From NCBI GenBank assembly GCA_947467185.1, contig CANIHR010000016.1, positions 1 to 34,241 of the forward strand: a stretch of 34,241 nucleotides of DNA. Direction: 5' to 3'. This document shows, one piece after another, positions 1-16,757 of this stretch. Numbering within the stretch: the first letter of the stretch is position 1; each line of letters starts with the position of its first letter. This DNA comes from Bryobacterales bacterium. Lineage in GTDB: Bacteria; Acidobacteriota; Terriglobia; Bryobacterales; Bryobacteraceae. The translations under genes were made by a program, and so were the position numbers. The notes beneath the pieces are model-generated. The model ran no database searches, was not told where the DNA came from, and saw nothing but the letters and a program-made list of their open reading frames with translations.

Positions 1-2424
1 TCCCCCGACTATTTCGACGCCCTCGGCCTCGTCCGCACCATGGAGCTTCTCTCCGCCGGACGCTACTACGGTGTCGACCAGTATTGGACCCGCGTCATCG
101 ACTACGGCTTCTCCAAAACCAAAGCCGAATCCATCTCCCGCTGGACCCACGACCGCGTTCTCTATGACGTCGTCAAGGTTGTCCGCCAGGTTCGCCCTCT
201 CGTCATCACCTCCGTCTTCGTCGGTGGCACCAGTGACGGCCATGGCAACCACCAGACCGCGGGTGCCATGGCGCAGGAAGTCTTCCGCGCCGCCGGTGAT
301 CCCAATGTTTTCCCTGACCAGATCAAGGCCGGTCTCAAGCCCTGGAATCCCATCAAGGATTACGCCCGAGCCCCCAACTCCCGTCGCGGCGGCACCAGCC
401 CGCTCTCCGTGAATGTCGAAGTCCCCGAAGGTGACTACGATCCCATCCTCGGTGCTTCCTATCAGCAGATTTCCCGTGAAGGCCTCGGTTACCAGAAATC
501 CCAGAACGGCGGCAGCTCCATCCCGAACGCCGGCCAGATGATGGCGGGCTATCACCGCTACGCCTCCGAAGTTGCCGTCCCCGAAAAGGAAAAGACCTTC
601 TTCGATGGCATCGACACCTCGCTCTCCGGCATCTCTTCTCTCGCCGGTCCGAATCCGCCCGCGTTCCTGACGGACGGTCTCCGCCAGATCAACGCCTCTG
701 TCGAAGAAGCCATCAGCAAGTTCTCCGCTGTGAAGCCCGATGCCACCGCGCCCGCTCTCGCCACCGGCCTCAAGGCCACCGCGGCGTTACTCGACGCCGT
801 AGGGAAGAGCAATCTCCCCGAACTCGCAAAGTTCAACGTCACCCACGAACTTCAGGTGAAGCGCGTGCAGTTCAACGACGCCCTCGCCGAAGCTCTCGGC
901 CTCTCCATCGCCGCCAACGTCGCGCCCGCCACCGAGAACACCTCACCCTTCGCTGCCATGATGGGCGACCCCGAGACCTTCCGCCTCGCCATCCCCGGCC
1001 AGAAGTTCGCCGTGAAGGTTCACGTCGTCAATCAGGCCGCCACCCCGGTCACCCTGAAGGCCGCCACCGTCGAGGCATACCAGCAGAAGGAACCCTGGAC
1101 CATCGCTGCCGCCGCACCGGTCACACCCGGTCCGCTCGCCGATGCGAAGGCCCTCGACGTTCGCTTCAACGTGACCGTCCCCGACAACGCAACCTTCACG
1201 CGACCCTACTTCTCTCGCCCTGACCTCGAGCAGTCCTACTACGACATCGCTGACGAGCGTTTCCTCAACAACCCCCTCTCGCCGTACCCTCTCGCCGCCT
1301 GGGCCGACTTCGAATATGAAGGCGCACCCATCCGCATCGGCCAGTACGTCCAGACCATCAAGCGCGTCACCGGCTCCGGCACCGTCAAGGAACCCCTGGC
1401 CGTCGCCCCTGCCGTCAGCATCGCCATCGCCCCCCGTGCCGGCATCGTGCCCATCGGCTCCAAAGCCTTCGAAGTCAACGCGGTCATTCGCAGCAACGTC
1501 AAAGGCCCCGCCAAAGGCACCGTTCGTCTGAACCTGCCCGCTGGCTGGACCTCCAAACCCGCCGCAGCCGACTTCTCTACGGCTGACGATGGTCAGGAAC
1601 AGGCCATGAGCTTCACGGTCACGCCTGCCAACCTCGCCGAAAAGCCATACCAGATTCAGGCCGTCGCCGAATACGCCGGACGCAAATACACCGAAGGCTA
1701 CGAGATGACCGGCTACTCCGGCGCTCGCCCCTACTTCCTCTACAAGCCGTCCACCTATAACCTCGCCGGCGTCGACGTCAAAGTCGCCCCCGGTCTCAAG
1801 GTCGGCTACATCATGGGCACCGGCGACGATGTCCCCGCTTCCCTCGAACACCTCGGTATCAAGGCCACTCTCCTCGGCCCCACCGAAGTGGCTTCGGGCG
1901 ATCTCTCCCGCTTCGACATCATCCTCCTCGGCGTCCGCGCCTACGCTGCGCGTGAAGACCTGAAGGTCCACAACGCCCGCCTTCTCGACTACGTCAAGAA
2001 CGGCGGCGTGGTCGTGGTTCAGTACAACACCCCCGAGTACGATCACAACTTCGGACCTTACCCGTACGTCATGGGCAGCAACCCCGAAGAAGTCACCGAC
2101 GAAGTCTCGAAGGTGAACATCCTCATCCCCACCCACCCCGTCTTCAACTGGCCCAACAAAGTCACCGAAAAGGACTTCACCGGCTGGGTCGAAGAGCGCG
2201 GTTCCAAGTGGCTCAAGTCCTGGGATCCCCAATACCAGGCTCTCCTCGAAACGCATGACTCGGATCAGCCGCCGCAGTCCGGTGGCCTCCTCTACGCAAA
2301 GTACGGCAAGGGCATCTACGTCTACAACGCATACGCCTTCTACCGCCAGCTGCCCGACGGCGTCCCCGGTGCCTACCGCATCTTCGCCAACATGCTGAGC
2401 CTGCCGAAGAACCCGCAGCGGTAA
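1..2424 (+). CDS. PIG-L family deacetylase-like secreted protein with long C-terminal extension (5' partial)
   Basis: The frame is open from the first base, so the N-terminus, including the expected AHPDDE-type metal motif, lies outside the window. The visible part starts with a PIG-L (LmbE-like) stretch: RPLVITSVF followed by DGHGNHQ, whose HxxH at 241-252 matches the second zinc-binding motif of N-acetylglucosaminyl deacetylases. A long beta-rich middle (about 1000-1740) resembles NEW3/alpha-galactosidase-associated domains. The last third (about 1790-2400) looks like a ThuA/class-I glutamine-amidotransferase fold, with KVGYIMGTGDDVP, an ILLGVRAY strand and GGVVVVQYNTPEY. Proteins of this architecture are common in Acidobacteriota and are usually exported; the substrate is unknown and may be a glycan or glycoside. 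The stop codon overlaps the next start (TAATG), which suggests translational coupling to the cytochrome gene. Confidence 0.82.
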   Translation, partial: SPDYFDALGLVRTMELLSAGRYYGVDQYWTRVIDYGFSKTKAESISRWTHDRVLYDVVKVVRQVRPLVITSVFVGGTSDGHGNHQTAGAMAQEVFRAAGDPNVFPDQIKAGLKPWNPIKDYARAPNSRRGGTSPLSVNVEVPEGDYDPILGASYQQISREGLGYQKSQNGGSSIPNAGQMMAGYHRYASEVAVPEKEKTFFDGIDTSLSGISSLAGPNPPAFLTDGLRQINASVEEAISKFSAVKPDATAPALATGLKATAALLDAVGKSNLPELAKFNVTHELQVKRVQFNDALAEALGLSIAANVAPATENTSPFAAMMGDPETFRLAIPGQKFAVKVHVVNQAATPVTLKAATVEAYQQKEPWTIAAAAPVTPGPLADAKALDVRFNVTVPDNATFTRPYFSRPDLEQSYYDIADERFLNNPLSPYPLAAWADFEYEGAPIRIGQYVQTIKRVTGSGTVKEPLAVAPAVSIAIAPRAGIVPIGSKAFEVNAVIRSNVKGPAKGTVRLNLPAGWTSKPAAADFSTADDGQEQAMSFTVTPANLAEKPYQIQAVAEYAGRKYTEGYEMTGYSGARPYFLYKPSTYNLAGVDVKVAPGLKVGYIMGTGDDVPASLEHLGIKATLLGPTEVASGDLSRFDIILLGVRAYAAREDLKVHNARLLDYVKNGGVVVVQYNTPEYDHNFGPYPYVMGSNPEEVTDEVSKVNILIPTHPVFNWPNKVTEKDFTGWVEERGSKWLKSWDPQYQALLETHDSDQPPQSGGLLYAKYGKGIYVYNAYAFYRQLPDGVPGAYRIFANMLSLPKNPQR

Positions 2425-3974
2425 TGCTTCGCAACGTACTACTTCTGGGCGGAGTCAGCGTTTTGCTGATCTCCGCCCAGACTATTTCTAACCCCTGCAA
2501 GACCTGCCACCCCAGCGAGACCGCGCGCTTCCTCGCCTCCCCCATGGGCCGGTCCCTCGGCCCCGCTGACGCCATCGCCTCCGGCCGCACAACCCACGCC
2601 CCCTCCGCCACCACCCTCACCGCCGACTTCCGCAAAGGCCAGCTCTTCCACACCATCTCCGCGCGCGGCATCACCGCCGAATATCCCGTCGCCTTCCAGA
2701 TCGGTCGGGGCGACAAAGCCCGTACCTACGCGGTCCGCGTCGGCGACTATCTCCTCGAATCCCCCCTCACCTGGTACAAATCCGGAGGCTGGGACGTCTC
2801 CCCCGGCTACGAAGCCATGCAACTCCTCGACTTCGACCGCCCCGTCACCGAAAACTGCCTCTTCTGCCACGCCGGACGCGCCAAAGCGAGCGACGCCGAC
2901 GGCCGCAAAATCCCCGCCGTCTCTGTCACCGCCATCACCTGCGATCGCTGCCACGGCGCCACCGCCGCCCACCTCGCCAGCCCGTCGGCCACCAACATCG
3001 TGAACCCCGCGAAGCTCACCGGCCCCGCCCGCGACAGCGTCTGCGAACAGTGCCACCTCGAAGGCGAAACCCGAGTCAATAATCCTGGGAAGACCCAGTG
3101 GGACTACCGCCCCGGCGACACCTTCGAAGCCACCATGGCCACCTACCTCCTCCACGACCCCGCCGAGAACGGACGCAAAGCCGTCACCCAGGTAGAGGAA
3201 TTAGCAGAAAGCAAATGCGCCAAATCCGGCCAGCTCTGGTGCGGTACCTGCCACAACCCCCATGCCGACACGGCCAATCGAGCCGCCAAAATGGCCCAAA
3301 TCTGCACCGGCTGCCACAGACAGCCTACCCTCTCCAAAACCGCCCACACCGCCAAAGCCACCGATTGCGCCGGCTGTCACATGCCCGCCCGACCCACCAG
3401 CAACGTCGCCCACCTCGCCGTCACTGACCACCAGCTCCGCCGCCCCGGCACCCCACCCGCCGCGCCCGTCCCCGGACCTCCCGGCATCAAACCCTGGCGT
3501 CAGCCCCCTGCCGAATTCCGTCAGCGCAACATGGCCCTCGCCGCTCTCCAGCTCGCCGCCGAACGCGACCTCCCGGCCCTCGCCGCTCAGGCCACCCGTA
3601 TCGTCGAATCCCTTCCCGCCCAACAGCAAACCAACGACCCCGAAGTTCTCGCCGCCCTCGAAGTCCTCTACCTCGGCACCAGCTCGCCCGAAAAGGCCGT
3701 TGAACTCAGCAAGTGGGCCGTCGATTCCGCCCCCAACTCCGCCACCTTCGCCATGAACCACGGCCTCGCCCTGATGCGGGCCAACAATCTCTCCGAAGCC
3801 GAACGCGAACTTCTCCGGGCGCTCAACCTCGACCCCTCCCTCATGCAGGCTGCCGCCCAACTCGCCATCCTCTATGACCGCCAGGGCCGCAAAGCCGATT
3901 CCCAGGCTGCCATCGCCCGCTTTTTAAAATGGAATCCGCAGAGCCTTCAGTTCCGCCTCGCGAACCGCCAATGA
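2424..3974 (+). CDS. Secreted seven-heme c-type cytochrome with C-terminal TPR repeats
   Basis: A 516-residue protein with a hydrophobic signal peptide (residues 1-19, VLLLGGVSVLLISAQ). It has seven CxxCH heme-attachment motifs, at residues 25-29, 145-149, 173-177, 207-211, 273-277, 294-298 and 315-319. A Pro-rich linker (340-362) leads to a helical C-terminus with TPR-like repeats (about 405-510, for example NHGLALMRANNLSEAERELL). The family is expected in the periplasm or on the cell surface, carrying electrons; the donor and acceptor cannot be told from sequence. The start overlaps the previous stop (TAATG) and the stop overlaps the CRTAC1-like gene (ATGA), so the three are probably made together. 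Matured multiheme cytochromes need a Ccm or Ccs system, which is not in this window. Confidence 0.9.
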   Translation: MLRNVLLLGGVSVLLISAQTISNPCKTCHPSETARFLASPMGRSLGPADAIASGRTTHAPSATTLTADFRKGQLFHTISARGITAEYPVAFQIGRGDKARTYAVRVGDYLLESPLTWYKSGGWDVSPGYEAMQLLDFDRPVTENCLFCHAGRAKASDADGRKIPAVSVTAITCDRCHGATAAHLASPSATNIVNPAKLTGPARDSVCEQCHLEGETRVNNPGKTQWDYRPGDTFEATMATYLLHDPAENGRKAVTQVEELAESKCAKSGQLWCGTCHNPHADTANRAAKMAQICTGCHRQPTLSKTAHTAKATDCAGCHMPARPTSNVAHLAVTDHQLRRPGTPPAAPVPGPPGIKPWRQPPAEFRQRNMALAALQLAAERDLPALAAQATRIVESLPAQQQTNDPEVLAALEVLYLGTSSPEKAVELSKWAVDSAPNSATFAMNHGLALMRANNLSEAERELLRALNLDPSLMQAAAQLAILYDRQGRKADSQAAIARFLKWNPQSLQFRLANRQ

Positions 3975-5668
3975 TCCACCGCCGCCACGCCCTGTCACTC
4001 CTGGCCGCACCCCTCCTGGGGCAGGGAATTGCCACCCGAGGCGTCCGCCCCACCCCACGCGGCAAACCCTCCGGTCTCCCCTTCCACTCCCGCCTCACCG
4101 ACATCGCCAAACAGGCCGGCCTCACCGAACCCATCGTCTCCGGCGGCGTCGATACCAAGAAATTCATCCTCGAAACCATCGGCTGCGGAGTCGCCTTCCT
4201 CGACTACGACAACGACGGCTGGCTCGATATCTTCCTCCTCTCCGGCACCCGCCTCGAAGGCTCCACCGCCACCAACCGCCTCTACAAAAACAACCGCGAC
4301 GGCACCTTCACCGACGTCACCGCCAAAGCTGGCCTCACCCACACCGGCTGGGCCTCCGCCGTCGCCGTCGCCGACTACAACAACGACGGTTTCGACGACA
4401 TCTTCATCACCTGCTGGGGCGAAAACCTTCTCTACCGCAACAATGGCGATGGCACCTTCACCAACGTCACCGCCCAGGCCGGCCTCGCCACCAAAGCCCC
4501 CCACTGGGGCTCCGGCTGCACCTGGCTCGACTACAACCGCGACGGCCACCTCGACCTCGTCGTCGGCAACTACACCCCCTTCGACCCCAAAACCGCTCCC
4601 CTCCCCGGCACCGCCGATAACTGCATTTGGCGCGGAGTCCCCGTCAACTGCGGCCCCCGAGGCCTCGTCCATGGCGGCATCGCCCTCTACCGCAACAATG
4701 GCGACGGCACCTTTACCGATGTCTCCGTCCCCTCCGGTCTCGCCAAAGCCAAATCCAGCTACGTCATGACCACCGTCGCCGCCGACTTTAACAACGACGG
4801 CTGGCCCGACATCTACGCCGCCTGCGACTCCTCCCCCAGCCTCCTCTTCCGCAATAACCACGACGGCACCTTCGCCGAAATCGCCCTCGAATCCGGCGTC
4901 GCGCTCAACGAAGACGGCCGCGAACAGGCCGGCATGGGTGTCGGGCTCGGCGACTACAACCTCGACGGCAACCTCGACATCTTCAAGACCCACTTCACTG
5001 ACGACACCAGCATCCTCTATCGCAACGCCGGCAACGGAACTTTCTTTGACCAGACCGTCCCCGCCGGCCTCAGCGTCGAAACGCGTTTCGTTGGCTGGGG
5101 AGCGGGTATCGTGGACCTCGATAACGATGGCAACCCCGACATCTTCCTCGTCACCGGCCACGTCTATCCTGAAGTCGAAAAGCCCCTCCCCGCCTACCCC
5201 TGGAAAACGCCCCGCATCGTCTTCCGCAACCTCGGCAATGGCCGTTTTGAAGAACTCATCTCCGAGACCCCCTCCCACGCCAGCCGCGGCTGCGCCTTCG
5301 GAGATTTCGATAACGACGGAGACCTCGACATCCTCGTCATGAACATGAACGAGCCCCCCAGCCTTCTCCGCAACGATGTCTCCGGTGACAACCACTGGCT
5401 CAAACTCAGGCTCACCGGCACCAAATCGAACCGGTCCGCCATCGGAGCTCGCGTCACTCTCACTTACGGTGGCAAACGCCAGACCCAGGAAGTTCTCAGC
5501 CAGTCCAGCTTCTACTCAACCAGCGACCGCCGCCTCCATTTTGGCCTCGGCCCCGCCGCAATCGCCGACCTCGAAATCCGCTGGCCCTCCGGTCTCACCG
5601 AACGCTACCTCCGCCTCGAGGCCAACCGCCTCATTGAGATCCGCGAAGGTGACGCGCCCTCGCCTTAA
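3971..5668 (+). CDS. CRTAC1 family protein: VCBS/FG-GAP repeats plus ASPIC/UnbV domain
   Basis: A 565-residue exported protein. I place the start at 3971, where ATGA overlaps the cytochrome stop. This gives [17 protein letters not shown], a twin-arginine-like signal; an in-frame ATG at 3929 would add 14 residues and bury the signal. Seven calcium-binding repeats of type DxDxDGxxD are visible near residues 78, 135, 187, 272, 328, 382 and 445 (for example DYDNDGWLD and DFDNDGDLD), as in FG-GAP/VCBS beta-propellers. Each is spaced by an [11 protein letters not shown]-like strand. Residues 485-555 are an ASPIC/UnbV domain (SAIGARV, RLHFGLG, IRWPSG). The family occurs widely next to TPR/cytochrome genes in Acidobacteriota and Planctomycetes. 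Its biochemical role is not established; a surface or periplasmic binding scaffold is likely. Confidence 0.92.
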
Positions 5669-5699: not shown

Positions 5700-6542
5700 A
5701 TGCACGTTCAGCCTCTTCAATCACTTGACCAATGGGATGACGCCGTTCGGGATCGCTATGATCCGAACAAAAAGAAAGAAGAGTTCCGCCAGTACGACGA
5801 CAAAACACCACCCGTCGTCCGCGAATTCTACCGCCAGAACCACCAGTTCCAGACCCTGGCTTCCGTCCTCGAACGCGAAGCGAATTTCGGCGCCCTGAAC
5901 CGCGGCGAAATGGGCATCTGGGAAGCGATGGAAAAGCTCAACACGCTCGTCGACGACAGCGATCCCGACACCTCGCTCTCGCAGATCGAACACAACCTCC
6001 AGACCGCCGAAGCCATCCGCCGCGATGGCCACCCCCGCTGGATGATCCTGACCGGCTTCATCCATGACCTCGGCAAGATGCTCTGCTTCTACGACGAACC
6101 CCAGTGGGCCGTCGTCGGCGACACTTTCCCCGTCGGCTGCGCCTGGTCAAACAAGATCGTTTACCCCGAATTCTTCGCCGCCAACCCCGACGCCCTGAAC
6201 CCCGCTCTCCAGACCGCCAACGGCATCTACGAACCCGGCTGTGGCCTGCGCAACGTTCACCTTTCCTGGGGCCACGACGAATATCTGTACCGCGTCACGA
6301 AGGACTACCTGCCCGAACCCGCGCAGTACATGATTCGCTACCACTCCTGCTACCCAGTCCACCGCGAAGGTGCCTACCAGCACCTCCTCGACGATCATGA
6401 TCGCGAAATGCTGGAATGGGTCCGCAAGTTCAACCCCTACGATCTCTATTCGAAGAGCGATACCCGCCCCCGCATGGAAGATCACCAGGCCTTCTACAAC
6501 GATCTGATCGCCGAGTTCTTCCCGAAGCCCATTCGCTGGTAA
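5700..6542 (+). CDS. myo-Inositol oxygenase (MIOX)
   Basis: A 280-residue protein matching the MIOX family along its whole length. It would cleave myo-inositol with O2 to D-glucuronate using a mixed-valent diiron centre. All expected iron ligands are present: H98, the HD pair H122-D123 in FIHDLGK, H192 in SWGHDEY, H215 in MIRYHSCYP and D248 in FNPYDLY. The family signature [15 protein letters not shown] is at 133-147, and VDDSDPD at 84-90. The start at ATG 5700 has AGAGG just upstream, spaced rather tightly. It lies 31 bases after the CRTAC1-like gene on the same strand, so co-transcription is possible. No inositol uptake gene or glucuronate pathway is adjacent. The stop codon abuts the stop of the convergent hybrid kinase with no gap. 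MIOX is best known in eukaryotes and is less common in bacteria. Confidence 0.95.
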
Positions 6543-8930
6543 TCAGGGGCTTTCGATAAACTCACGGAGTTGATTCTGCGTGCGGTCGAATTCCGCCGTC
6601 AGTTGGCTGAAGCACCTCTGGATTTCTGCCTCGTTCCCCTCGCCCGCTGCCCGCTCGATTTCGCGGGCGACGCGGCTGAGGTGTGTCACGCTCACATTCG
6701 CCGCCGCTCCCTTGATGGCGTGCGCCAGATCCCGCACCTGTCCTGCTTCGAGTGCCGGACCCGACTCCAGTGCCTGTGCCAGAGCTGCAATCTGCGCCGG
6801 TACATCGTCCAGGAACCGGCTGGCCACGCGCTTCGCCAGGTCTTCATTTCCCATGAGTCGCTCGACGAAATCGTCCCGATCAAACCCGTCGGTCCGGGGC
6901 GACAGGCTTTCCTCCTCTGCTGCAACCGGATCCGGAACCTTTCCTGAGACGCCCGTATATTGATCCAGCAGCGCCTCCAGCACTTTTGCCTGGACCGGTT
7001 TCGAAATGTAGTCGTCCATCCCGGCCTGGAGGCATTTCTCCCGGTCACCGGCCAGCGCATGCGCCGTCATGGCTATTACCGGAACATCGTGATCCGCCAC
7101 CTGCGTCTCCCGAGACCGAATCAGCCGGGCCAGTTCGTAGCCATCCAGTTCCGGAAGATTACAGTCCGTAAGCACTGCGGCGTAACAGTTGGTGTGCAGC
7201 AACTGAAGCGCGGCTTTGCCATCAAAGGCGACATCCGCCTCGTACCCCAGGTCCTCAAGAATGCCCAGCGCTACCTCCCGGTTCACCGCATTGTCTTCCA
7301 CCAGCAGTAGTTTTCGCCCCCGTCGCAGTGCTTTCTGCACCGGCGCCGGGGAGGTTGCCGCCCACTCTGCGTTTTGTTGCCGCCCAAAGCCCATGGCGAA
7401 GGCCAGCGCTGCCCCCAGATCGCCTTGTCTCAGCGGCTTCGTCACTCGTCGGGTGAATCCTCGCTGTTGCCACCAGGCCGTGTCGCGGGCGTCCTTCAAC
7501 GCTGTCATCGCGATCAGCGGCATGGGGAAATGATGTGGGAATCCTTCGCCGCTCATCTCCCGATTTCCCACGTCCACCAGCACGGCATCGTATCCCGAAT
7601 CCATTTCGCTCAACCGCTTCAGCGCACCTGCGCGGTCCGGTGCTTCATCTCCTCGGCAATCCCAATAGCGGAGGTATCTCAGGATGTGCGCCCGACTTGC
7701 CGCTGAACTGTCGACAATCAGAACCCGTTTCCCCTGTAATGACAGTGCTTTGGGTCTGCGGACTTCGGGCTGGGCCGGCAAGGCGGCAGTGAACCAGAAC
7801 ATCGTCCCCTTGCCTTCGTCACTCTCGAACCCAACCTGCCCACCCAGCATCTTCACCAGTCCGGCGACAATCGACAGCCCGAGACCCGTGCCTCCGTGTC
7901 GGCGCGCGGTGGACGCGTCTGTCTGGGAAAACGGCTGGAACAGCAGGTTGTGCTTGTTGGCTGGTATCCCTGGACCTGTATCCTGAACTTCGAACCGCAA
8001 CAAGTCACCGCTGCCTTCTGAGCGGCTTACTTCCAGCGCGACACTGCCTGCCGCTGTGAACTTCACCGCATTGCCCATCAGGTTGATCAGAATCTGACGC
8101 AACCGGTTGGGGTCGCCCTGCAGCCGCGTCGGCACTCCCGGCTCGATGAAATAGAGTACCTCCAGACCCTTTTCCTGTGCGCGGACTGCCAGGAGTTCGC
8201 AAACATCTTCCACAATCCGGCGCAGGTCGAAATCGGCCACTTCCAGTTCCAGCTTGCTGGCCTCGATCTTGGAAAAGTCCAGGATATCGTTCAGCACTCC
8301 CAGCAGCGCTTCCGCGCTGTCTCGCAGTGTCTCCATCCTGCCCCGCTGCCGCGTCGTCAGATCGCTGTTCATCAGCAGCCCCGCCATTCCCAGAATCCCG
8401 TTCATCGGGGTCCGGATCTCGTGGCTCATGGCCGCCAGAAATTCGCTTTTTGCTCGGCTGGCTGCTTCCGCCGCCCGCAGGGCTTTTTCCAGTCGCCGGG
8501 CTTGTTCCACCCGCTGGCTGACGTCTTCAATTATTCCGACATAGCCCAAAATGCAGCCCTGTTCGTCCATCGTCGGACTCACGCTCAGGCTTCCGGCGAA
8601 ATGGGTCCCATCGCGCCGGACCATCGTCCACTCGGTCGCCTCCGGCAGACCCCGCTCATCGGTGCGGATCGCCAGGTCCCCAAACTCCACTGGCCTTTTC
8701 AGCAGTTGGCGCATTTGTCGCTTTCGCGCCTGCACCTCCTCAGCCATATGGAGCCTTTCTGCCAGCATCCGCCCGGTGACATCCTGCGCTCTGTATCCCA
8801 GCAGGATCTCCGCCCCACGATTAAATAACGTGATGAGGCCCCGTCGGTCCGTCCCGATCACCGCCACGGACGTGATCGCCTGCAGGATCCGTGCCAGGTC
8901 TCCATCCTGACTGTTAGAGTTCTCAGCCAT
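6543..8930 (-). CDS. Hybrid histidine kinase: PAS-HisKA-HATPase-REC-REC-Hpt
   Basis: A 795-residue cytoplasmic-looking kinase with no clear membrane segment. Domains in order: PAS (about 15-138); HisKA with phospho-His H170 in AAMSHEIRTPMNG; HATPase_c with the N-box around N287, DTGPGIP at 317-323 and GGTGLGLSI at 346-354; a first receiver (402-510); a second receiver (539-658); and an Hpt domain with H737 in LAHAIKGAAAN. The second receiver is complete (E545/D546, D589, T622, K644). The first keeps D453, T476 and K498, but its acidic pair is only D407-S408, so metal binding may be weak. It is the last gene of the chemosensory operon, and its start overlaps cheR by 8 bases. A phosphorelay ending on Hpt suggests it passes phosphate to a separate receiver. 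Candidates in the operon are the PP2C-linked REC, the CheA REC or CheB. Confidence 0.93.
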   Translation of the reverse strand: MAENSNSQDGDLARILQAITSVAVIGTDRRGLITLFNRGAEILLGYRAQDVTGRMLAERLHMAEEVQARKRQMRQLLKRPVEFGDLAIRTDERGLPEATEWTMVRRDGTHFAGSLSVSPTMDEQGCILGYVGIIEDVSQRVEQARRLEKALRAAEAASRAKSEFLAAMSHEIRTPMNGILGMAGLLMNSDLTTRQRGRMETLRDSAEALLGVLNDILDFSKIEASKLELEVADFDLRRIVEDVCELLAVRAQEKGLEVLYFIEPGVPTRLQGDPNRLRQILINLMGNAVKFTAAGSVALEVSRSEGSGDLLRFEVQDTGPGIPANKHNLLFQPFSQTDASTARRHGGTGLGLSIVAGLVKMLGGQVGFESDEGKGTMFWFTAALPAQPEVRRPKALSLQGKRVLIVDSSAASRAHILRYLRYWDCRGDEAPDRAGALKRLSEMDSGYDAVLVDVGNREMSGEGFPHHFPMPLIAMTALKDARDTAWWQQRGFTRRVTKPLRQGDLGAALAFAMGFGRQQNAEWAATSPAPVQKALRRGRKLLLVEDNAVNREVALGILEDLGYEADVAFDGKAALQLLHTNCYAAVLTDCNLPELDGYELARLIRSRETQVADHDVPVIAMTAHALAGDREKCLQAGMDDYISKPVQAKVLEALLDQYTGVSGKVPDPVAAEEESLSPRTDGFDRDDFVERLMGNEDLAKRVASRFLDDVPAQIAALAQALESGPALEAGQVRDLAHAIKGAAANVSVTHLSRVAREIERAAGEGNEAEIQRCFSQLTAEFDRTQNQLREFIESP

Positions 8931-9762
8931 TGGTTTTCAGTTCGTAGTACACCGACCGCAGATGCCTCCTCGACTCGAACTGCGGACACAAACCGTTCAG
9001 GGACTCCATCGATCCGATGACCAGCTGACCATCCCGCTCCATCCTCTGACCAATTCGGGTAAACATCGATATCCGGTCCTTCTCATTGAAGTAAATTGCC
9101 ACGTTCCGGCAAAACACGATGTCGAACGTCCCCACGCCGGAGAAATCCTCCACCAGATTCAGGCGGCGAAAACATACCATGCCGCGGAGTTCGTCCCGAA
9201 TTTTCCAGCCGCGTGGAACCCGCGTGAAGTACCTCGCCACCGACGCCTCACTCAGGCCACGGGAGATCTCCACCTCGCTGAAAATACCCTCGCTCGCCGT
9301 CGCAACCGCCGCATCGGAAATGTCCGTTCCCAGAAGTCGAATCTTGTACTTGCTAACATCGCCGAGTGTCTCCTTCAGGGCGATGGCAATGCTGTAGAGT
9401 TCCTGTCCGCTGGAACATGCCGCGCTCCAGATGCGAATTGGGATCGGCGCCACGGAACTGCGCCGTCTGTCGATCAGCTCAGGAATCAGCTTGAATCGCA
9501 GCAGGTCAAACGGCGATGAATCCCGGAAAAAAAGTGTCTCCCTGGTCGTGATGTCATTGATGATTCGCCGCTGCACGCCGCCACTCAAATCGGACTTCGC
9601 CTTCTGAAGAAGTTCCAGATAGCTCCCGCAGTGCAGTTCTTCTGCGATGCCGCTCAGTCGGTTCTCAATCAGATATGTCTTTGATGGATCCAGCGAGATC
9701 GAACAAAGCGCATGAATATATGCGCCAACAACGGGAAACTCCTGTGCCTGCAATCTGATCAT
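8923..9762 (-). CDS. cheR: Chemoreceptor glutamate methyltransferase CheR
   Basis: A 279-residue SAM-dependent methyltransferase that methylates glutamates on the cytoplasmic helices of the chemoreceptor. The N-terminal helical part leads into TTRETLFFRD (72-81), the family's TxxTxFFR motif. This is followed by the SAM-binding loop IWSAACSSGQE (111-121), D147 in LLGTDISD and the FCRNVAIYF segment (217-225). The MCP in this operon has no C-terminal NWETF-like pentapeptide, so CheR here is probably of the pentapeptide-independent type. The start overlaps the cheB stop as ATGA, with GGGA upstream on the coding strand. Length and motifs are normal for the family. Confidence 0.95.
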   Translation of the reverse strand: MIRLQAQEFPVVGAYIHALCSISLDPSKTYLIENRLSGIAEELHCGSYLELLQKAKSDLSGGVQRRIINDITTRETLFFRDSSPFDLLRFKLIPELIDRRRSSVAPIPIRIWSAACSSGQELYSIAIALKETLGDVSKYKIRLLGTDISDAAVATASEGIFSEVEISRGLSEASVARYFTRVPRGWKIRDELRGMVCFRRLNLVEDFSGVGTFDIVFCRNVAIYFNEKDRISMFTRIGQRMERDGQLVIGSMESLNGLCPQFESRRHLRSVYYELKTNG

Positions 9763-10889
9763 TTCGCATCCCGAACCTGGCGCATAATTTCCGCCGCCAC
9801 AAGGCCCAGCGGAACGACGTGGTCCGCAATACCCGCCCGAATTACCTCACGAGGCATGCCGAAGACTATTGAAGTCGCCTCATCCTGCGCAATCGAAACA
9901 CACCCTGACTTTTTTAACTCCCGAACACCTTCCGTGCCGTCGGTACCCATCCCCGTCAGGACTACCGCGATCGATCTTTGCGGGAATGCACTTGCCACGG
10001 ACCGGAACAATACGTCCACTGCGGGCCGACAGCCATGTTCCGGCGGACCGTCTGTCAGTCGGATCACCGGCCGGTTCATTCCCGCGGGGACAAGCGTCAT
10101 GTGTCTGCCGCCCGGCGCCAGATAGGCGCAGCCCGGAGTGGCCACTTCGCCATCTTCGGCCTCTTTGATACGTATCCGGCTCTTTGCCTGCAGACTCTGT
10201 GCCAGCGCAGCAGTGAACAGCGGCGGCATGTGTTGCACGATAAAGATGGGGGCTGGTAGCTCCGCCGGCAGGGATGGCAAAACTTCCGCCAGCGCGCGGG
10301 GGCCCCCCGTCGAGACCCCGATCAGGATGAGCGCCGGCTTCACGATCCTGTTGTCGGTCGCGCCCGACGGACCAGTTGACCGTCCCTGGACGGGAGCGGT
10401 GGCGGGGGGCGGTGGCGGTGTCGTGTGGGATGCCATGGAAGTCGCCGGCTTCCGGTATGAATGATTCAGCAACTGCCGGATTTCCCGCTGGCGGGCAAAA
10501 GCAGCCAGCTTCGGCGCCAGCACGCCTCGCAGCTTCAGGATCGTACTTTCTGCGTTGCCACCGTCCGGCTTGGCAATGAAGTCGAAGGCCCCCAGTTCCA
10601 GTGCCCTCATGGTAGTCTGTGTGCCACGGACCGTTCCGGAACTGATCATCAGCGCTCCCGGCGCTCCGTCAATTCGAGCCAGAGCTTCCAGCGTCTCAAT
10701 GCCGTTCATCTCCGGCATTTCCAGATCCAGTGTTAACAAATCCGGGCGCGCTGTCTCCAGTCGAGCCAGTGCCAGCTTCCCGTTCGAGGCCGTCCCGCAG
10801 ACTTCCACGTCCGGGATACCAGCCAAAGCATCAGACACGACCTTCCGGAAGACGGCCGTATCATCCACCACCAGCACGCGCAGGCTCAT
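9759..10889 (-). CDS. cheB: Chemotaxis protein-glutamate methylesterase/deamidase CheB
   Basis: A 376-residue two-domain response regulator. The N-terminal receiver has D9/D10, phosphoacceptor D55 in LLTLDLEMP and K108 in AKPDG. A Pro/Ala/Thr-rich linker (about 148-182) leads to the CheB methylesterase domain. Its catalytic triad is S193 in GVSTGGP, H220 in VQHMP and D317 in GMGTDG. It would remove methyl groups from, and deamidate, the MCP when phosphorylated by CheA. The start is well supported: MSLRVLVVDD begins at the domain edge and AGAGAGGA lies about 8 bases upstream. The gene begins inside cheW, with a 29-base overlap. Confidence 0.96.
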   Translation of the reverse strand: MSLRVLVVDDTAVFRKVVSDALAGIPDVEVCGTASNGKLALARLETARPDLLTLDLEMPEMNGIETLEALARIDGAPGALMISSGTVRGTQTTMRALELGAFDFIAKPDGGNAESTILKLRGVLAPKLAAFARQREIRQLLNHSYRKPATSMASHTTPPPPPATAPVQGRSTGPSGATDNRIVKPALILIGVSTGGPRALAEVLPSLPAELPAPIFIVQHMPPLFTAALAQSLQAKSRIRIKEAEDGEVATPGCAYLAPGGRHMTLVPAGMNRPVIRLTDGPPEHGCRPAVDVLFRSVASAFPQRSIAVVLTGMGTDGTEGVRELKKSGCVSIAQDEATSIVFGMPREVIRAGIADHVVPLGLVAAEIMRQVRDAK

Positions 10890-11367
10890 TGGCTATTCCT
10901 CTCTGCCCCCGGCCGACTACCTCCGGGGCAAGCAAGGCCTCGGTATCGAGCAGCGCGATGACCCTTTCATTGACTCGGTAGACTTCCCGGCAAATACCCG
11001 CTCGTTCCGGTGCCAGATTCGCAGGCACCGGTGCCGACGCTCCGGATTCCGTCTCCAGAACTTCGGCGACTCTTTCCACCATCAGGCCCACAAACTCCGC
11101 CCGGCTATGAACGATGATGACCCGGCTTCCCCGGTCAGCGTCCGACGCTCCCACCCCCAGCAGCATTCCTGCGTCGAAGATCGTGACAATCCTGCCCCGC
11201 AGGTTGATGACGCCGAGCACCCCTCCGCCGGCATGGGGTACTCTCGTCATTGCCCGGGGGCGAATCACCTCCTGTACGCGCGAAGCCTCGATCGCGTACA
11301 TCACATCCTTCACGGCAAACGTTGCCAGAAGGGTTGTGGAATCGGCAACAGCATTAAGCGTGGACAT
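10861..11367 (-). CDS. cheW: Chemotaxis coupling protein CheW
   Basis: A 168-residue protein with a single CheW domain that would bridge the MCP and CheA in the signalling array. Visible features are the first strand LLATFAVKDVMYAIEAS, the segment MTRVPHAGGGVLGVINLRG, IVTIFDAG and the late LMVERVAEVLE strand. The N-terminal 10 residues and the C-terminal Ala/Gly/Arg tail (about 150-168) lie outside the domain. It overlaps the MCP gene upstream by 14 bases and cheB downstream by 29 bases. The tail is encoded by the overlap with cheB, so it may be a by-product of the gene packing rather than functional. Confidence 0.93.
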   Translation of the reverse strand: MSTLNAVADSTTLLATFAVKDVMYAIEASRVQEVIRPRAMTRVPHAGGGVLGVINLRGRIVTIFDAGMLLGVGASDADRGSRVIIVHSRAEFVGLMVERVAEVLETESGASAPVPANLAPERAGICREVYRVNERVIALLDTEALLAPEVVGRGQRGIANEPARAGGG

Positions 11368-13459
11368 GGGCGGCCTGTACCCGGAACCGGTCTACCGTCA
11401 GCTGCAACTGATTCGAAATCCGTGAGACCTCGTCGGCGCTGGCCCGCACATGTCCGCTCCCATCAGACATCTCTGACGCCGCATGGTCCACAGTGCCAAT
11501 GTCCTTCGCAATTTCGCGCGAGACCTGAGACGACTGTGCCACGCGCTCGTTGGCGTCATTCACCCCTGTCGAAGCCTCCGCGATATTCCGTGCGATATCC
11601 TTCGTCGCTGTCGCCTGCTCTTCAATCGCCGCAGCAATCGACCCAACAATGTCGCTGACCTCATGAATGACCTGCGAGACCTTTTCAATCTCCGAAATCC
11701 CGCTGGCCGTTGATCTCTGCACTCCGGCCACGCGGTTCTTGATATCTTCCGTGGCCGCCGCTGTCTCCTGCGCTAACGCCTTGATTTCGTTGGCCACCAC
11801 TGCGAAGCCCTTACCTGCTGCGCCAGCTCGCGCGGCTTCAATCGCTGCATTCAGCGCCAGCAGATTCGTCTGCGACGAGATCTCGTTGATCGTTTCCGTC
11901 ACCTTGCCAATCTCCCTCGCTGATTCGCTCAACTGGTTGATCTGCTCGGTGATCTTCTGCGCCTGCATGGTGGCATCATGTGTAATCCGCCGCGCCCGTT
12001 CGGAATTACCGGCGATTTCGCCAATTGTTGCCGTCATCTGGTCAGTCGCTGCCGCCACGTTCGCGAGGTTGGTCGTCGTCTCTTCCATCCCGATCGCGAC
12101 CGAAGTCACGTTCGAACTCATCTCTTCGGCCGCCGCCGCTACTGAGTGCGCCTTATCAGAAGCGTTTCTTGATTCTGCGGTCATCTGCGTTGAACTGCTT
12201 TGCAGCAGGCCCGCCGCCGACGAGAGTACCCCGACACCACTCGAAATCTCACCCACCATCTTCCGCAGCTTCGTCGACATCTCCTGCATGGCCCGCGCCA
12301 GTGTTCCAATCTCATCACCGCGTTCCAAAAAGCTCTCGGGCAGATCTCTCGAAAGATCACCATCCGCTACAAAGCCTGCGTGCGCGACCGCTGTCGATAG
12401 TGGCCTGGTTACCCCGCGGATCGTCAGCACCAGCACAGCCAGCGCCAGCGCCAGTCCCGTCCCCGTGATCAGCGTCGTCCGGTAGCTGCCGAAGTCCGCA
12501 ATTCGCTCCTCAAGAAGTCGCTGTAGCTCCGCCAGCGACTTCTCCCCCAGTTCTACACTGGCCTGGCTCGCCCGCGAAGCCACTTGTTCGAACTCCTCGG
12601 CCGAGATCTGCTTTCCCTGTCCCATGCCGTTCAATGTGTCAATCAGATGCCCAAGTTCGGTCCTGTACCGTCCCAATGTCGTTTCCAGCGAGGCCCGCAG
12701 CGCAGCGCTCGGATTCGGACCTTTCGAATTGGCCTCAAGAACCGTTACCAGATCTTCGTTGATATGGTCAAATTCCGCGTCCTTCAACATGGTGCCCGCG
12801 ATCGCCATATCCTGTTTCTCGTTACTGCTCTGGCTGTGAACTTTTGCCGCACTTGCAATCTGTATTCGCACGGAACCGAGTCGGGCGACATGCTTCGCGA
12901 GAATCTCCGACGAGGCGTCCCCCAGATGATACGTGTCTAACTCTGGATCGAGGGTAATGTTCGAGGTGTCGACCGCATGGGCCACCCAATCTGTCATCGA
13001 CATAACCATCTGGTCGTACTGCTCCGACGCTGCTTTTGACAAGGGATTCTGCGACTCACGCTGCAGCGCCTGCCACTTCTGTGCAATTGCCTCCAGCCGG
13101 AGATTGTCGTGGCCCGATTCTTTTAGTTGCTTGTCGGTGAACTGCATCGATTCCCCGTGCTCCTGCATTTCTTTGCTGAGTTGCTTTAACTGGTTTTCCA
13201 CCTCCTGACGAGCCGCTTCGCTGTCGCGGCTTCCCCGGATCGTGGCGACGCGATAATCTGCCAGTGATTTGAGCATGCGGATCGCCGGAGCCTCGAACTT
13301 CGCACCATCCACTTCAAGTCTCGCGAAGGAAAGCTTCTCCGATAATTGCTCTATGTTGAAGTAGAACAGCACTCCCAGCGGCAGGGAAAAGAAGCACACG
13401 CTTGCCAGAAAGCGCTGCGCAATATTAAAGCGGTTCAGAAATTTCACTGTTTTCGACAT
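11354..13459 (-). CDS. Methyl-accepting chemotaxis protein (transmembrane chemoreceptor)
   Basis: A 701-residue receptor. The start at 13459 (MSKTVKF) is chosen because AGGTGA sits about 6 bases upstream; an in-frame ATG at 13486 would add 9 residues and overlap cheA. TM1 is at about 17-35 (FLASVCFFSLPLGVLFYF). A helical extracytoplasmic sensor region of about 290 residues with no recognisable ligand domain follows. TM2 is at about 326-347 (ITGTGLALALAVLVLTI), then HAMP, then the signalling coiled coil. The hairpin tip (about 523-563) reads SSQTNLLALNAAIEAARAG followed by GFAVVANEIKALAQE, which contacts CheA and CheW. It is the only receptor in the operon, so it is probably the dedicated input. 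No C-terminal CheR-docking pentapeptide is present. Confidence 0.94.
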   Translation of the reverse strand: MSKTVKFLNRFNIAQRFLASVCFFSLPLGVLFYFNIEQLSEKLSFARLEVDGAKFEAPAIRMLKSLADYRVATIRGSRDSEAARQEVENQLKQLSKEMQEHGESMQFTDKQLKESGHDNLRLEAIAQKWQALQRESQNPLSKAASEQYDQMVMSMTDWVAHAVDTSNITLDPELDTYHLGDASSEILAKHVARLGSVRIQIASAAKVHSQSSNEKQDMAIAGTMLKDAEFDHINEDLVTVLEANSKGPNPSAALRASLETTLGRYRTELGHLIDTLNGMGQGKQISAEEFEQVASRASQASVELGEKSLAELQRLLEERIADFGSYRTTLITGTGLALALAVLVLTIRGVTRPLSTAVAHAGFVADGDLSRDLPESFLERGDEIGTLARAMQEMSTKLRKMVGEISSGVGVLSSAAGLLQSSSTQMTAESRNASDKAHSVAAAAEEMSSNVTSVAIGMEETTTNLANVAAATDQMTATIGEIAGNSERARRITHDATMQAQKITEQINQLSESAREIGKVTETINEISSQTNLLALNAAIEAARAGAAGKGFAVVANEIKALAQETAAATEDIKNRVAGVQRSTASGISEIEKVSQVIHEVSDIVGSIAAAIEEQATATKDIARNIAEASTGVNDANERVAQSSQVSREIAKDIGTVDHAASEMSDGSGHVRASADEVSRISNQLQLTVDRFRVQAAHVHA

Positions 13460-13463
13460 CGGT

Positions 13464-16436
13464 TCACCTGTTTCTGTTTTCTGCAATCTCTTCGGAGAGC
13501 GACTTGCGGATACTGTTGATCAACATGTCGCCGTCCAGTTTCACCTGATACTCGCTGACGCCGGCCGCAAAGCCCCGCGCGATTTCCGCTTCTCCCGCAA
13601 GTGACGACAAAGCAATCACGGGCAGTTTGGCAAATCTGGAATCCGCCCGAATGTGCCTTGTAAGCTCCAGCCCGTCCATTCTCGGCATCTCCACATCGGT
13701 TGCCACAAGAGAAACGCGTTCGGCGTTCTCCATCAGCAGTTCCCATGCGGCCTGCCCGTCCGGAGCGGCGATCGTTCGGTATCCAACCGCCTCTACCAAT
13801 CGCTGGATCTGGTTTCGGAAAAAGTCGGAATCCTCGGCGATCAACACTGTCCCGCTCTCTCCCGCCGCTTTGCGTTCTACCTGAACCTCGGCGGGCCGTA
13901 CGTCCGGCTGGCCGGCCACGCTGCTTCCCAGTTCAAAAACGTCCAGCATCAGGGTTGTCTTTCCGTTCAGCACGGCGGATCCACCAACACCCGGTTGCCG
14001 AAGCGTAACGGCGTCCAGCGCCACTTCTGCTTCCAGCATCTCCAGTGGTTCCGCGGCCACCAATCCAAAGGTCCGGCCGACCCGCTCCACCAGAATCACC
14101 ACCCATTGCTGTGTTGGCTCCAGTTCTCCCACGTCCGCCATATCCCGCAGCATCACCAGCGGCAGACTCGCTCCTTCGTACTGCATGGTCCGCCGTCCGC
14201 CCAGATACTCCACCTGTGAAGGGTCCACGCTGTCGACCCTCTTCACCTGCTCAATCGGAATCGCACACGCCTCTCCCGGCGCATTGTGGAACATAAGCAG
14301 TGAATGGCTGCTGCTCTGTTTCTCCGCCGTTTCCTCCTGCCCGGTTCTCAGGCCCTCGCTGGCCTTCATGGCCGCGCGTTCCGCCAGCCCGGCGGCATCC
14401 AGAATCAGGGCAACTTCACCGTTGCCCAGAATCGTCGCCCCGGCATAGTCCCGCAAGTCCTGCAGATGCCGCCCCAGCGGCTTCACCACAATTTCCACCG
14501 TGTCGTGAAGCTTCTCGACGATCAGGCCAAATTCGAAGCTCCCCGTGTCCAGCAGGACAACGTTGAGCGCCACCGACGGGTCATCCAGACGTTCCAGCCC
14601 GACCGCGTCAGCCAGATGCAGCAGCGGCACCAGTCGGTCCCGCAGCAACAGAACCTCCGCCCCGCCGGCCCGGTCAATGCGCTCCGCAATCTTGCCCGCT
14701 GGAATCCGGATGAGTTCGCCGACGCTCACCTGCGGAATCGCGAAGCGTTCGTCACCCTGCGATACCAGCAGAGAAGGAATGATCGCCAGCGTCAGCGGCA
14801 ACTTAATGCGGAACCGGGCACCCTTGCCCGGCATCGACTCGATCTCCACCTTGCCGCCCAGTTTGTCCAGGTTCGTGCGCACCACATCCATCCCCACACC
14901 GCGCCCCGAAACATCGCTCACCACTTCCGCCGTTGACATTCCCGGCAGGAAAATCAGTGCGATTTTCTCCCGGTCGCTCATGCCTTCCAGTTGCGCCTGG
15001 GAGACAAGGCCACGAGCCAGGCTGGACGCTGCTATTTTGTCGGCGCGCAGCCCCTTTCCGTCGTCCCCGATTTCAATCACGACCTGGCCCGCCTGATGAC
15101 TCGCCCGCAGCGTCACAGTTCCTGCGGCTGCCTTTCCTGCGGCACTCCGCACTTCCGGCGCTTCAATCCCGTGGTCGACCGAGTTCCGCACCATGTGGGT
15201 CAGCGGATCGCTCAGGCCTTCCAGGATCGTCTTGTCGAGTTCAACTTCGCCGCCCTCCATGCGAAGGTGAACGTCCTTTCCCAGGCTTCGCGCGAGATCC
15301 CTCACCAGCCTGGGGAACTTAGCGAACAGGGAGCTGACCGGCTGCATGCGGGTCAGCGTCACTGCTTCCTGCAATTCCGAAGTTGCCGCGCTGATGCGGT
15401 TCGCGCTCGCTGCAATCGCACGTTCATCACGACTGGCGAGCGCCTCGTTCATCTGGTTGCGTCCCAGTACCAGCTCGCCGGCCAGCGTCATCAGCGAATC
15501 CAGCAACGAGACATTCAGCCGCACCGTGGCTTCCGGTGCCGGCGTTGCAACACTCTCCGCCCGACCGGCTATTTCTTCGCGAACAGTTTCTTCTCGTACA
15601 GCGACTGGCCCCGGACCTTCCGTCCACTCCACCGCAACCGCAGACTCCGCCTGTCGAATCGGTTCCGCCAATTCCTGAACACAACGAATCTGCTCGGGCC
15701 GGATCCGCAATAATTGGCTTAGCGCCACTTCATCCAGGGTGCTGGCATAGAGCACGTCCAGGTGTATCTCACCGCGCGGCTCATCGTCCAGTGTTCCCAC
15801 CGACTGCAGGTCCAGTGCGGAATCCAGAACCTGGCCGGAGTCCATCAGGGTTCGGAAAATGTCGAGTGGTGTCGCGTTGCGCCGCTGGATATCGGTGAGT
15901 AAATCGAAGGCCACCTGGAAAATGCGTTTCCCGGCTCGTCGCGCATGCTCCAGATCGAACTCGGAGACCTCCGCGAACGGCCCTTCGCCGCTCACATCAA
16001 TGGCTCCGCACAGCGCGGACGGTTGTGACCCTTCAAGTCCCGGGACGACGCTCGAAAGGCTGGTCAGTGCCGTTACAAAATCTGAGATGTCCTCGCTGTT
16101 ACTGCTGCCGAAGTTGTCCAGCAGGTCTCGCAGCTTGTCAAAAGCCAGCAGCAGAACATTGACGATTTCCGGCGTCGGTACCATCTCCCGCGACCGGACC
16201 ATGTCCAGTACATTTTCCGTTTTGTGCGCCAGCTCCCGGATCTTTGTCAGGTCAAAGAAACCGGCCCCACCCTTGATCGAGTGTGCTGCCCGGAAAACCC
16301 GATTTACCAGCTGTTCGTCAATTGCCGAGCCGGCCTGCTCAATCTGCAGCAGATCGGTTTCAATCGTCGCCAGGTGTTCACGGCTTTCTGCCAGATAGCA
16401 CTGTACCAGGTCGTCATCGTGGGCGAAATCGCTCAT
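13464..16436 (-). CDS. cheA: CheA histidine kinase with two CheW-like domains and a C-terminal receiver
   Basis: A 990-residue hybrid CheA. The Hpt domain (8-106) has phospho-His H52 in AAHSIKGGAGFF. Residues 155-255 form an extra domain that I cannot assign firmly; it may be a P2-like regulator-docking domain. A charged linker leads to the dimerisation helices (about 307-372), then HATPase with the N-box HMVRNSVDHGIE (414-425), DDGKGL (458-463) and GRGVGMDVV (511-519). A standard CheW domain follows (548-685), then a second CheW-like domain (about 710-845). A receiver closes the protein (862-980) with E868/D869, D914 and K966. The ATG at 16436 has GGAG 9 bases upstream. The built-in receiver may serve as phosphate sink or output, because no separate cheY is present. 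Confidence 0.95.
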   Translation of the reverse strand: MSDFAHDDDLVQCYLAESREHLATIETDLLQIEQAGSAIDEQLVNRVFRAAHSIKGGAGFFDLTKIRELAHKTENVLDMVRSREMVPTPEIVNVLLLAFDKLRDLLDNFGSSNSEDISDFVTALTSLSSVVPGLEGSQPSALCGAIDVSGEGPFAEVSEFDLEHARRAGKRIFQVAFDLLTDIQRRNATPLDIFRTLMDSGQVLDSALDLQSVGTLDDEPRGEIHLDVLYASTLDEVALSQLLRIRPEQIRCVQELAEPIRQAESAVAVEWTEGPGPVAVREETVREEIAGRAESVATPAPEATVRLNVSLLDSLMTLAGELVLGRNQMNEALASRDERAIAASANRISAATSELQEAVTLTRMQPVSSLFAKFPRLVRDLARSLGKDVHLRMEGGEVELDKTILEGLSDPLTHMVRNSVDHGIEAPEVRSAAGKAAAGTVTLRASHQAGQVVIEIGDDGKGLRADKIAASSLARGLVSQAQLEGMSDREKIALIFLPGMSTAEVVSDVSGRGVGMDVVRTNLDKLGGKVEIESMPGKGARFRIKLPLTLAIIPSLLVSQGDERFAIPQVSVGELIRIPAGKIAERIDRAGGAEVLLLRDRLVPLLHLADAVGLERLDDPSVALNVVLLDTGSFEFGLIVEKLHDTVEIVVKPLGRHLQDLRDYAGATILGNGEVALILDAAGLAERAAMKASEGLRTGQEETAEKQSSSHSLLMFHNAPGEACAIPIEQVKRVDSVDPSQVEYLGGRRTMQYEGASLPLVMLRDMADVGELEPTQQWVVILVERVGRTFGLVAAEPLEMLEAEVALDAVTLRQPGVGGSAVLNGKTTLMLDVFELGSSVAGQPDVRPAEVQVERKAAGESGTVLIAEDSDFFRNQIQRLVEAVGYRTIAAPDGQAAWELLMENAERVSLVATDVEMPRMDGLELTRHIRADSRFAKLPVIALSSLAGEAEIARGFAAGVSEYQVKLDGDMLINSIRKSLSEEIAENRNR

Positions 16437-16442
16437 CGCTGT

Positions 16443-16757
16443 CTACTCCACTCCGCTGATTCTGAAATGCTGGTGCATTCGCATGCTGCGGAACAAGTCG
16501 CCGATCTCCGGTGCCACGCCTGTTAGTTCCAGCTTGCCTCCGGTTTTTTTGAGGGAATTGTGCGTTGAAATGATTAGCCCGATCCCCGCCGAGTCCACCA
16601 TTCGGACCTCCTCCAGATCCAGTTGCAGTACCTGAACGCCTCCGGCCAGCAATTCCTTTAGCTGGGCTCTCAATTCCGGCACCCGTGCCGCAACCACATC
16701 GGTCGTAAGCCGGAACAGTTTCTGATCCTGAAAATCCAATACACATGTGTCGTTCAT
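16443..16757 (-). CDS. STAS domain protein (anti-sigma factor antagonist-like)
   Basis: A 104-residue single STAS domain of the SpoIIAA/RsbV type. The key segment VRMVDSAGIGLII (51-63) contains S56, the serine that an RsbW-like kinase would phosphorylate and a PP2C phosphatase would restore. The start at 16757 (MNDTCVLDFQ) overlaps the stop of the kinase gene as ATGA and has GGGGA 8 bases upstream; longer in-frame starts add only unstructured sequence. It lies between the RsbW-like kinase and cheA, six bases from cheA. It is probably the switch protein whose phosphorylation state is the output of the operon. Its target is not encoded next to it. Confidence 0.93.
   Translation of the reverse strand: MNDTCVLDFQDQKLFRLTTDVVAARVPELRAQLKELLAGGVQVLQLDLEEVRMVDSAGIGLIISTHNSLKKTGGKLELTGVAPEIGDLFRSMRMHQHFRISGVE

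Follow-up and report, generated by a model that had tools for sequence, protein, structure and literature searches.

Why are a seven-heme cytochrome and a CRTAC1-like propeller protein encoded by overlapping genes in a Bryobacterales bacterium, and do the two proteins work together? The window, that is, the whole stretch of DNA analyzed here, is 34,241 nucleotides long and is an entire contig (CANIHR010000016.1) of the assembly GCA_947467185.1 (G000; 5.78 Mb genome, 496 contigs). At its start, the plus strand carries three open reading frames, those of a PIG-L-type gene (1–2424), a heptaheme c-type cytochrome with a C-terminal tetratricopeptide repeat (TPR) domain (2424–3974), and a CRTAC1-like propeller (3971–5668). 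The original prediction had described these genes as a coupled trio, and both the reading frames and the junctions, TAATG at 2422–2426 and ATGA at 3971–3974, proved to be real. Beyond the window, Acidobacteriota repeatedly pair multiheme and CRTAC1 genes, in more than one type of pair, and the recurring unit is the cytochrome/CRTAC1 pair, with TPR as its likely adaptor. We tentatively propose, with slightly less than even confidence, that cytochrome and propeller belong as two subunits to a single exported redox complex, the contacts, catalysis, and substrate of which we infer.

Thirteen adjacent same-strand pairs of a protein with at least five hemes and a CRTAC1 protein were found, seven of them heptaheme and six pentaheme, with the cytochrome gene first in 10 and the order reversed in 3. 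In nine of the 13, the two genes share an in-frame NTGA stop/start overlap, compared with 39 of 305 same-strand background neighbors (Fisher p = 9e-6). A protein with at least five hemes is encoded adjacent to 3 of 14 CRTAC1 genes in the window's own genome and to 9 of 98 in relatives, versus 1 of 462 background genes. Seen from the cytochrome, in named loci that were found via the cytochrome alone, 11 of 38 cytochrome genes have CRTAC1 no more than two genes away, versus 8 of 462 genes in the background. The commonest CRTAC1 partner overall is a TPR protein, with TPR fused or adjacent to 13 of 14 CRTAC1 genes in the own genome, 57 of 98 in relatives, and 24 of 462 background genes.

Genes were called with a simple open reading frame picker that gives a bonus for hits, and the neighborhood counts omit gene calls shorter than 150 amino acids, genes at locus ends, and identical proteins, so that 44 named loci yield 38 cytochrome genes (second copies included). 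The named loci with the nearest cytochromes are metagenome-assembled genomes (MAGs) of Acidobacteriia and Bryobacterales. The 98 relative CRTAC1 genes come from 60 regions of 13 genomes, picked largely by E-value from the matches listed among 322, and the background consists of 20 evenly spaced regions of one genome (G011) together with the initial 20 kb from each of 20 G000 contigs, with CRTAC1 genes excluded. Some loci are apparently the same contigs (for example, L081 and G011 C1, or L083 and G010 C86); duplicates of a protein were removed per cohort, not across cohorts.

The clearest conserved neighborhood is that of a pentaheme-TPR/CRTAC1 pair. This second pair in the window's own genome (L044:2438–6984, G000 C67) comprises a pentaheme-TPR protein of 964 amino acids with N-terminal hydrophobic stretches, whose gene overlaps the CRTAC1 gene. 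The pentaheme protein was matched in 10 of 13 genomes of the genus and the CRTAC1 ortholog is contiguous with it in nine; in the remaining one, G336, the heme gene is cut off by the end of its contig. Genome G005 contains the CRTAC1 ortholog (77%) and no pentaheme gene match at the threshold used. The heptaheme type also exists in a split version, in which separate genes for the heme protein, the TPR protein, and CRTAC1 directly follow one another (L111, L157, and L169), and therefore the cytochrome of the window looks like a fusion of a heme and a TPR protein. In L171, the split genes follow the order CRTAC1, heptaheme, TPR. A single-chain fusion of heme protein and CRTAC1 was not seen, as 0 of 149 CRTAC1 gene calls (some genes being in more than one locus) contain any CXXCH motif.

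Several observations weigh against reading this pairing as a functional unit. Within four genes, 24 of the 38 cytochromes in the named loci have no CRTAC1, and the same holds for 16 of 21 cytochromes, some of them cut off by contig ends, among up to four genes on each side in a wider phylum selection (20 regions, mostly outside the window's class). The majority of CRTAC1 genes likewise lack a multiheme neighbor. The Fisher values overstate the case because the pairs include orthologs (the window and L053; L044, L105, L109, L113, L154, and L172), as do the p-values at large because loci and genomes share ancestry, and the TPR profile was derived from the same loci. On a FastTree phylogeny of 125 CRTAC1 proteins of at least 450 amino acids, a tree with long branches on which labels permit one intervening same-strand gene, the heptaheme label requires 9 changes for 12 genes and the pentaheme label 3 for 6. 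The former value is near that expected of unselected neighbors, at a shuffled mean of 11.6, although just 6 of the 500 shuffles reached so low a number. Pairing thus recurs across the tree with little clustering; because 9 changes is barely below the shuffled mean, it cannot alone separate selection from chance, nor can it separate gain from loss.

The cytochrome has 516 amino acids and a signal-like N terminus. It contains exactly seven CXXCH motifs, the number first proposed for it, and all seven are invariant in an alignment of 51 complete cytochromes, which were chosen for having at least seven such motifs. Heme 1 (CKTCH, 2496–2510) and heme 2 (CLFCH, 2856–2870) flank a beta-strand domain in the predicted model (2571–2798). 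Heme 3 (CDRCH, 2940–2954) and heme 4 (CEQCH, 3042–3056) flank the invariant His183 (2970–2972), and hemes 5 to 7 lie at 3240–3254, 3303–3317, and 3366–3380. His280 is also invariant, His336 is present in 50 of the 51 cytochromes and His330 in 44. A conserved non-heme S-x-C (3210–3218) separates hemes 4 and 5, with Ser263 in 51 of 51 and Cys265 in 50 of 51. The predicted TPR stretch (3510–3971) reaches 23.7 bits at best in Pfam, under the cut-off of 27, and is backed by a match to designed consensus TPR proteins (E = 1.7e-12) and by the predicted model (pLDDT 83), which combines the beta insert between hemes 1 and 2 with a confident tail of TPR helices. At E 1e-25, the heme-domain family is present in 29 of 197 Acidobacteriota genomes. 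A frame of 1592 amino acids in G275 looks like an upstream overrun of a heptaheme-TPR gene. Directly upstream of the heptaheme-TPR gene of L222 (G254) lie genes for one protein with 11 hemes and one with 5, possibly an electron conduit.

When the heme-domain sequence profile was compared with the PDB, the best match was 6i5b (E = 2.4e-14), followed by 6qvm, MccA, and NrfA, with c554 matched weakly (E = 0.07). Furthermore, 32 of 33 family members match the Pfam family Cytochrome_C554. In fold searches with the whole cytochrome model, TPR matches dominated and no heme-protein fold was among the matches listed, an absence that carries no information. The assignment of the heme domain therefore comes from the sequence profile alone. 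On this profile evidence, the heptaheme domain probably belongs to the c554/OcwA/NrfA superfamily, which is a claim of relationship and not of identical ligation. According to its published description, 6i5b is OcwA, the nonaheme terminal reductase of Thermincola potens, in which hemes 2 and 5 are open and heme 9 is ligated by His and Met, and which shares a beta-sheet domain with MccA. The cytochrome resembles OcwA, its best sequence match, in the spacing of hemes 1 to 4 and in its beta-sheet domain. In contrast, it has seven hemes rather than nine, a C-terminal TPR domain where OcwA has a three-helix bundle, and Met41 (2544–2546), 12 residues past the motif histidine of heme 1, where OcwA has histidine. 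It also differs from c554, NrfA, and MccA in its extra TPR domain, its CRTAC1 gene partner, and its lack, as read by eye, of CXXCK, the catalytic motif of NrfA.

The residue 12 positions past heme 1 is Met in 48 of the 51 cytochromes and His in three, the proteins of the split genes, in which it replaces Met41. Because Met or His occupies this position in all 26 multiheme proteins encoded within two genes of a CRTAC1 gene, the residue is very probably an axial ligand, and methionine ligation should raise the potential of that heme. Since heme 2 aligns with the second CXXCH of OcwA, it is a candidate for an open, five-coordinate site. Both assignments have points that count against them. The histidines of OcwA and MccA at the Met41 position lie in profile segments that score just 3 to 6 bits by themselves, and histidines of intermediate conservation (H58 in 33 and H308 in 26 of the 51) might ligate heme 2, the openness of which is transferred from OcwA.

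The partner protein matches what had been expected of it. It has seven D-x-[DN]-x-D-G repeats for the calcium-type repeats, its predicted model (pLDDT 83) forms seven blades, and its UnbV_ASPIC domain (5438–5635) scores 70.7 bits against a cut-off of 23.4. An alternative in-frame ATG is located at 3929. The best PDB match of the model is mouse CRTAC1 (9etn, E = 7.5e-30, TM 0.69–0.70), and the next solved folds include fungal lectins that bind N-acetylglucosamine (GlcNAc) and integrin alpha. With mouse CRTAC1 and bacterial UnbV_ASPIC proteins it shares the seven-bladed FG-GAP propeller and the UnbV_ASPIC domain; unlike the mouse protein, it is bacterial, has a Tat-like signal, and has a heme protein as gene partner. 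The suspected Tat signal gained support from relatives. The loose motif RR-x-hydrophobic, which we take to be a Tat signal motif, occurs in the first 70 residues of 13 of 13 proteins in its clade (the smallest on the CRTAC1 tree that includes the window protein and has 12 or more members), versus 32 of all 125. The stricter RRxF[LIVM], presumably a Tat motif as well, occurs in 5 of the 13 (the window protein not among them) versus 15 of 125.

UnbV_ASPIC matches number 19 in the window's genome and up to 56 in one relative among the matches listed. L037 (G000 C109), L109, L150, L163, and L174 share a conserved cluster in which several CRTAC1 genes in tandem are accompanied by a small TPR gene (not among the gene calls of L163) and by a fused CRTAC1-TPR gene for about 1050 amino acids. 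In L105, L175, and L043, heme-associated genes, presumably DUF1549/DUF1553- and DUF1501-like, lie beside or near CRTAC1 genes. The literature searched, as titles, beginnings of abstracts, and passages, assigns no bacterial function to CRTAC1-like proteins. The component families are already known, and at the level, mostly, of titles and abstracts we found no description of their pairing as multiheme-TPR/CRTAC1 in that literature, which included PMC6703420, PMC3174227, PMC12758564, and PMC10404256.

How might such a complex operate? The TPR tail of the cytochrome may dock the propeller, which we infer because TPR is the usual CRTAC1 partner and because heme, TPR, and CRTAC1 genes are consecutive in three loci. 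Electrons would pass along the hemes, one of them predicted to be His-Met ligated through Met41, to heme 2. With a distal side that may be open, by homology, heme 2 could be where the complex reduces or oxidizes a small substrate or chelate. The propeller would then provide a metal-stabilized surface on which the substrate, or a partner, is held in position.

The original prediction had named a conserved neighborhood in relatives as its test. That expectation held for the cytochrome and CRTAC1, whose pairing recurs without being obligatory, and failed for the PIG-L gene. This gene encodes a PIG-L-type deacetylase/amidase with a NEW3 (NPCBM_assoc) domain, and its 5' end is lost at the contig start; the full-length homolog is L053:7293–10001. 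The truncated PIG-L domain scores 26.5 bits, below the Pfam cut-off of 28.2, and that of the L053 homolog 60.7 bits, with HGNH and with AHPDDE, which we take to be a PIG-L motif. Because the window begins inside the PIG-L gene, the signal peptide and AHPDDE are known from the L053 homolog only. L053 is an Acidobacteriia MAG whose cytochrome is 83% identical to that of the window, and its gene order is TPR protein, TonB-type receptor, PIG-L, cytochrome, CRTAC1, and a myo-inositol-oxygenase-like (MIOX) protein, with identical overlaps. The receptor has OMP_b-brl_4 and CarboxypepD_reg domains. L096 likewise contains the TPR protein, the TonB-type receptor, and PIG-L, and its sequence ends within the cytochrome. 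In both loci the receptor is immediately upstream of PIG-L; the window ends short of the corresponding place.

A PIG-L gene is adjacent to 2 of 57 cytochromes examined, those of the window and L053. PIG-L matches were obtained in 75 of 151 genomes, and 20 loci holding 21 PIG-L genes were fetched. PIG-L was rejected as a member of the unit, with this cytochrome within four genes of 0 of the 21. In one case a CRTAC1 gene is found at a distance of three genes and in another a six-heme gene at a distance of four (below the threshold for a cytochrome match), whereas 12 of the 21 have a TonB-type receptor within four genes. The window also contains a MIOX-like fourth gene (5700–6542, plus strand), 31 bases after CRTAC1 and absent from the earlier description, which is downstream in L053 too. 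On the sample available (37 genomes matched, 12 loci fetched including the window's own), MIOX was also rejected, with CRTAC1 in the 1.5 kb flanks of 0 of the 11 other loci. In the loci examined, the arrangement of the trio thus seems local and lineage-specific, with PIG-L as a neighbor. PIG-L, the upstream TonB-type receptor of the relatives, and the downstream MIOX-like enzyme would form a local lineage context outside the recurring unit, possibly for glycoconjugate uptake and processing. From 6543 to 16868, the minus strand carries a chemosensory cluster (a hybrid kinase with PAS and Hpt domains, CheR, CheB, MCP, and a CheA-like protein with CheW and receiver domains), and these genes do not seem to belong to the trio's unit.

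The handling of glycans or other ligands, also raised in the original prediction, may still play a part, because TonB-type receptors are enriched near both families in relatives and lie upstream of PIG-L in L053 and L096. As a rival to the redox complex, the locus would serve TonB-dependent uptake, with CRTAC1 and TPR proteins as surface lids or docking proteins and the cytochrome as a variant of the TPR proteins whose task is to reduce a metal or chelate ahead of its import. SusD contains TPRs and BtuG is a lid, and in relatives, as in SusCD and BtuBG, genes for TPR and propeller proteins have a TonB-type receptor gene nearby. Complexes of BtuB with BtuG have been described (PMC10404256). The L053 gene order and the GlcNAc-binding lectins among the next-best folds of the propeller fit this explanation, as does a TonB-type receptor within four genes of 48 of 98 CRTAC1 genes in relatives and of 19 of 38 cytochromes, compared with 82 of 462 in the background. 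However, the enrichment is not significant in the own genome (5 of 14, p = 0.09), and directly adjacent same-strand receptors are scarce (0 of 14 in the own genome, 8 of 98 in relatives, 10 of 462 in the background). The L053 TPR protein matches TPR families only and not SusD at E 0.001, no lipobox was seen by eye in the cytochrome or CRTAC1, and a multiheme cytochrome is present, unlike in SusCD or BtuBG. We regard this explanation as rather unlikely.

A chance neighborhood of two common families in one lineage, with no functional link, would fit the 19 UnbV_ASPIC matches in the genome, the restriction of the trio to very close relatives, the predominance of unpaired members in both families, and a heptaheme label that is scattered over the CRTAC1 tree. 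Yet enrichment over the background, the overlapping junctions, and the genus-wide pentaheme pair argue against it, and we consider it unlikely. The cytochrome might instead be a pure electron-transfer wire in which all hemes are six-coordinate and which feeds another enzyme, with CRTAC1 as its docking protein. Seven invariant CXXCH motifs, several invariant candidate ligands, and the absence of CXXCK are consistent with a wire, but homology to OcwA with its open heme 2 and the nearly invariant non-heme Cys265 count against it, and we consider this explanation quite improbable.

Gene clusters that resemble those of hydrazine synthase (HZS) also contain CRTAC1 genes. CRTAC1 genes beside HZS-like genes were described for other bacteria in 2025 (PMC12758564). 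In a locus of the same genus (L152, 2797–13622), two HZS-like genes flank CRTAC1. One is HZS-alpha-like, with matches to Pfam HZS_alpha (E = 6.5e-18) and to HZS alpha in the PDB (E = 1.5e-12); the other is HZS-beta-gamma-like, with matches to an NCBIfam family (E = 1.7e-59, under the curated cut-off) and to HZS beta in the PDB (E = 3.5e-41). A heptaheme-TPR gene lies just upstream of this cluster, which is followed by a Reg_prop-type propeller gene, a small gene, and a periplasmic-binding-protein gene. A second locus of the genus, L143, has the same HZS-like/CRTAC1 order, judged from gene layout and sequence likeness only. In contrast to these clusters, none of the four window genes is HZS-like, nor are the TPR, receptor, and PIG-L genes of L053; the alpha subunit was not searched genome-wide. 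A search of G000 that had no positive control returned no HZS beta-gamma match at E 1e-20, and we therefore do not claim hydrazine chemistry for this genome.

A broader extension, which we hold to be doubtful, is that exported multiheme oxidoreductases of Acidobacteriota form an unrecognized class in which CRTAC1 propellers are the general non-catalytic subunit, in a role comparable to that of the beta propeller of hydrazine synthase. Catalytic parts of the heptaheme-TPR, pentaheme-TPR, and HZS-like kinds would attach to this same propeller scaffold via TPR adaptors. The HZS-like cluster with CRTAC1 in the same genus offers a starting point for substrate tests. If CRTAC1-like proteins are indeed multiheme redox subunits, an abundant family would gain a testable role, and the orphan multiheme cytochromes of Acidobacteriota would gain partners with which they could be co-purified.

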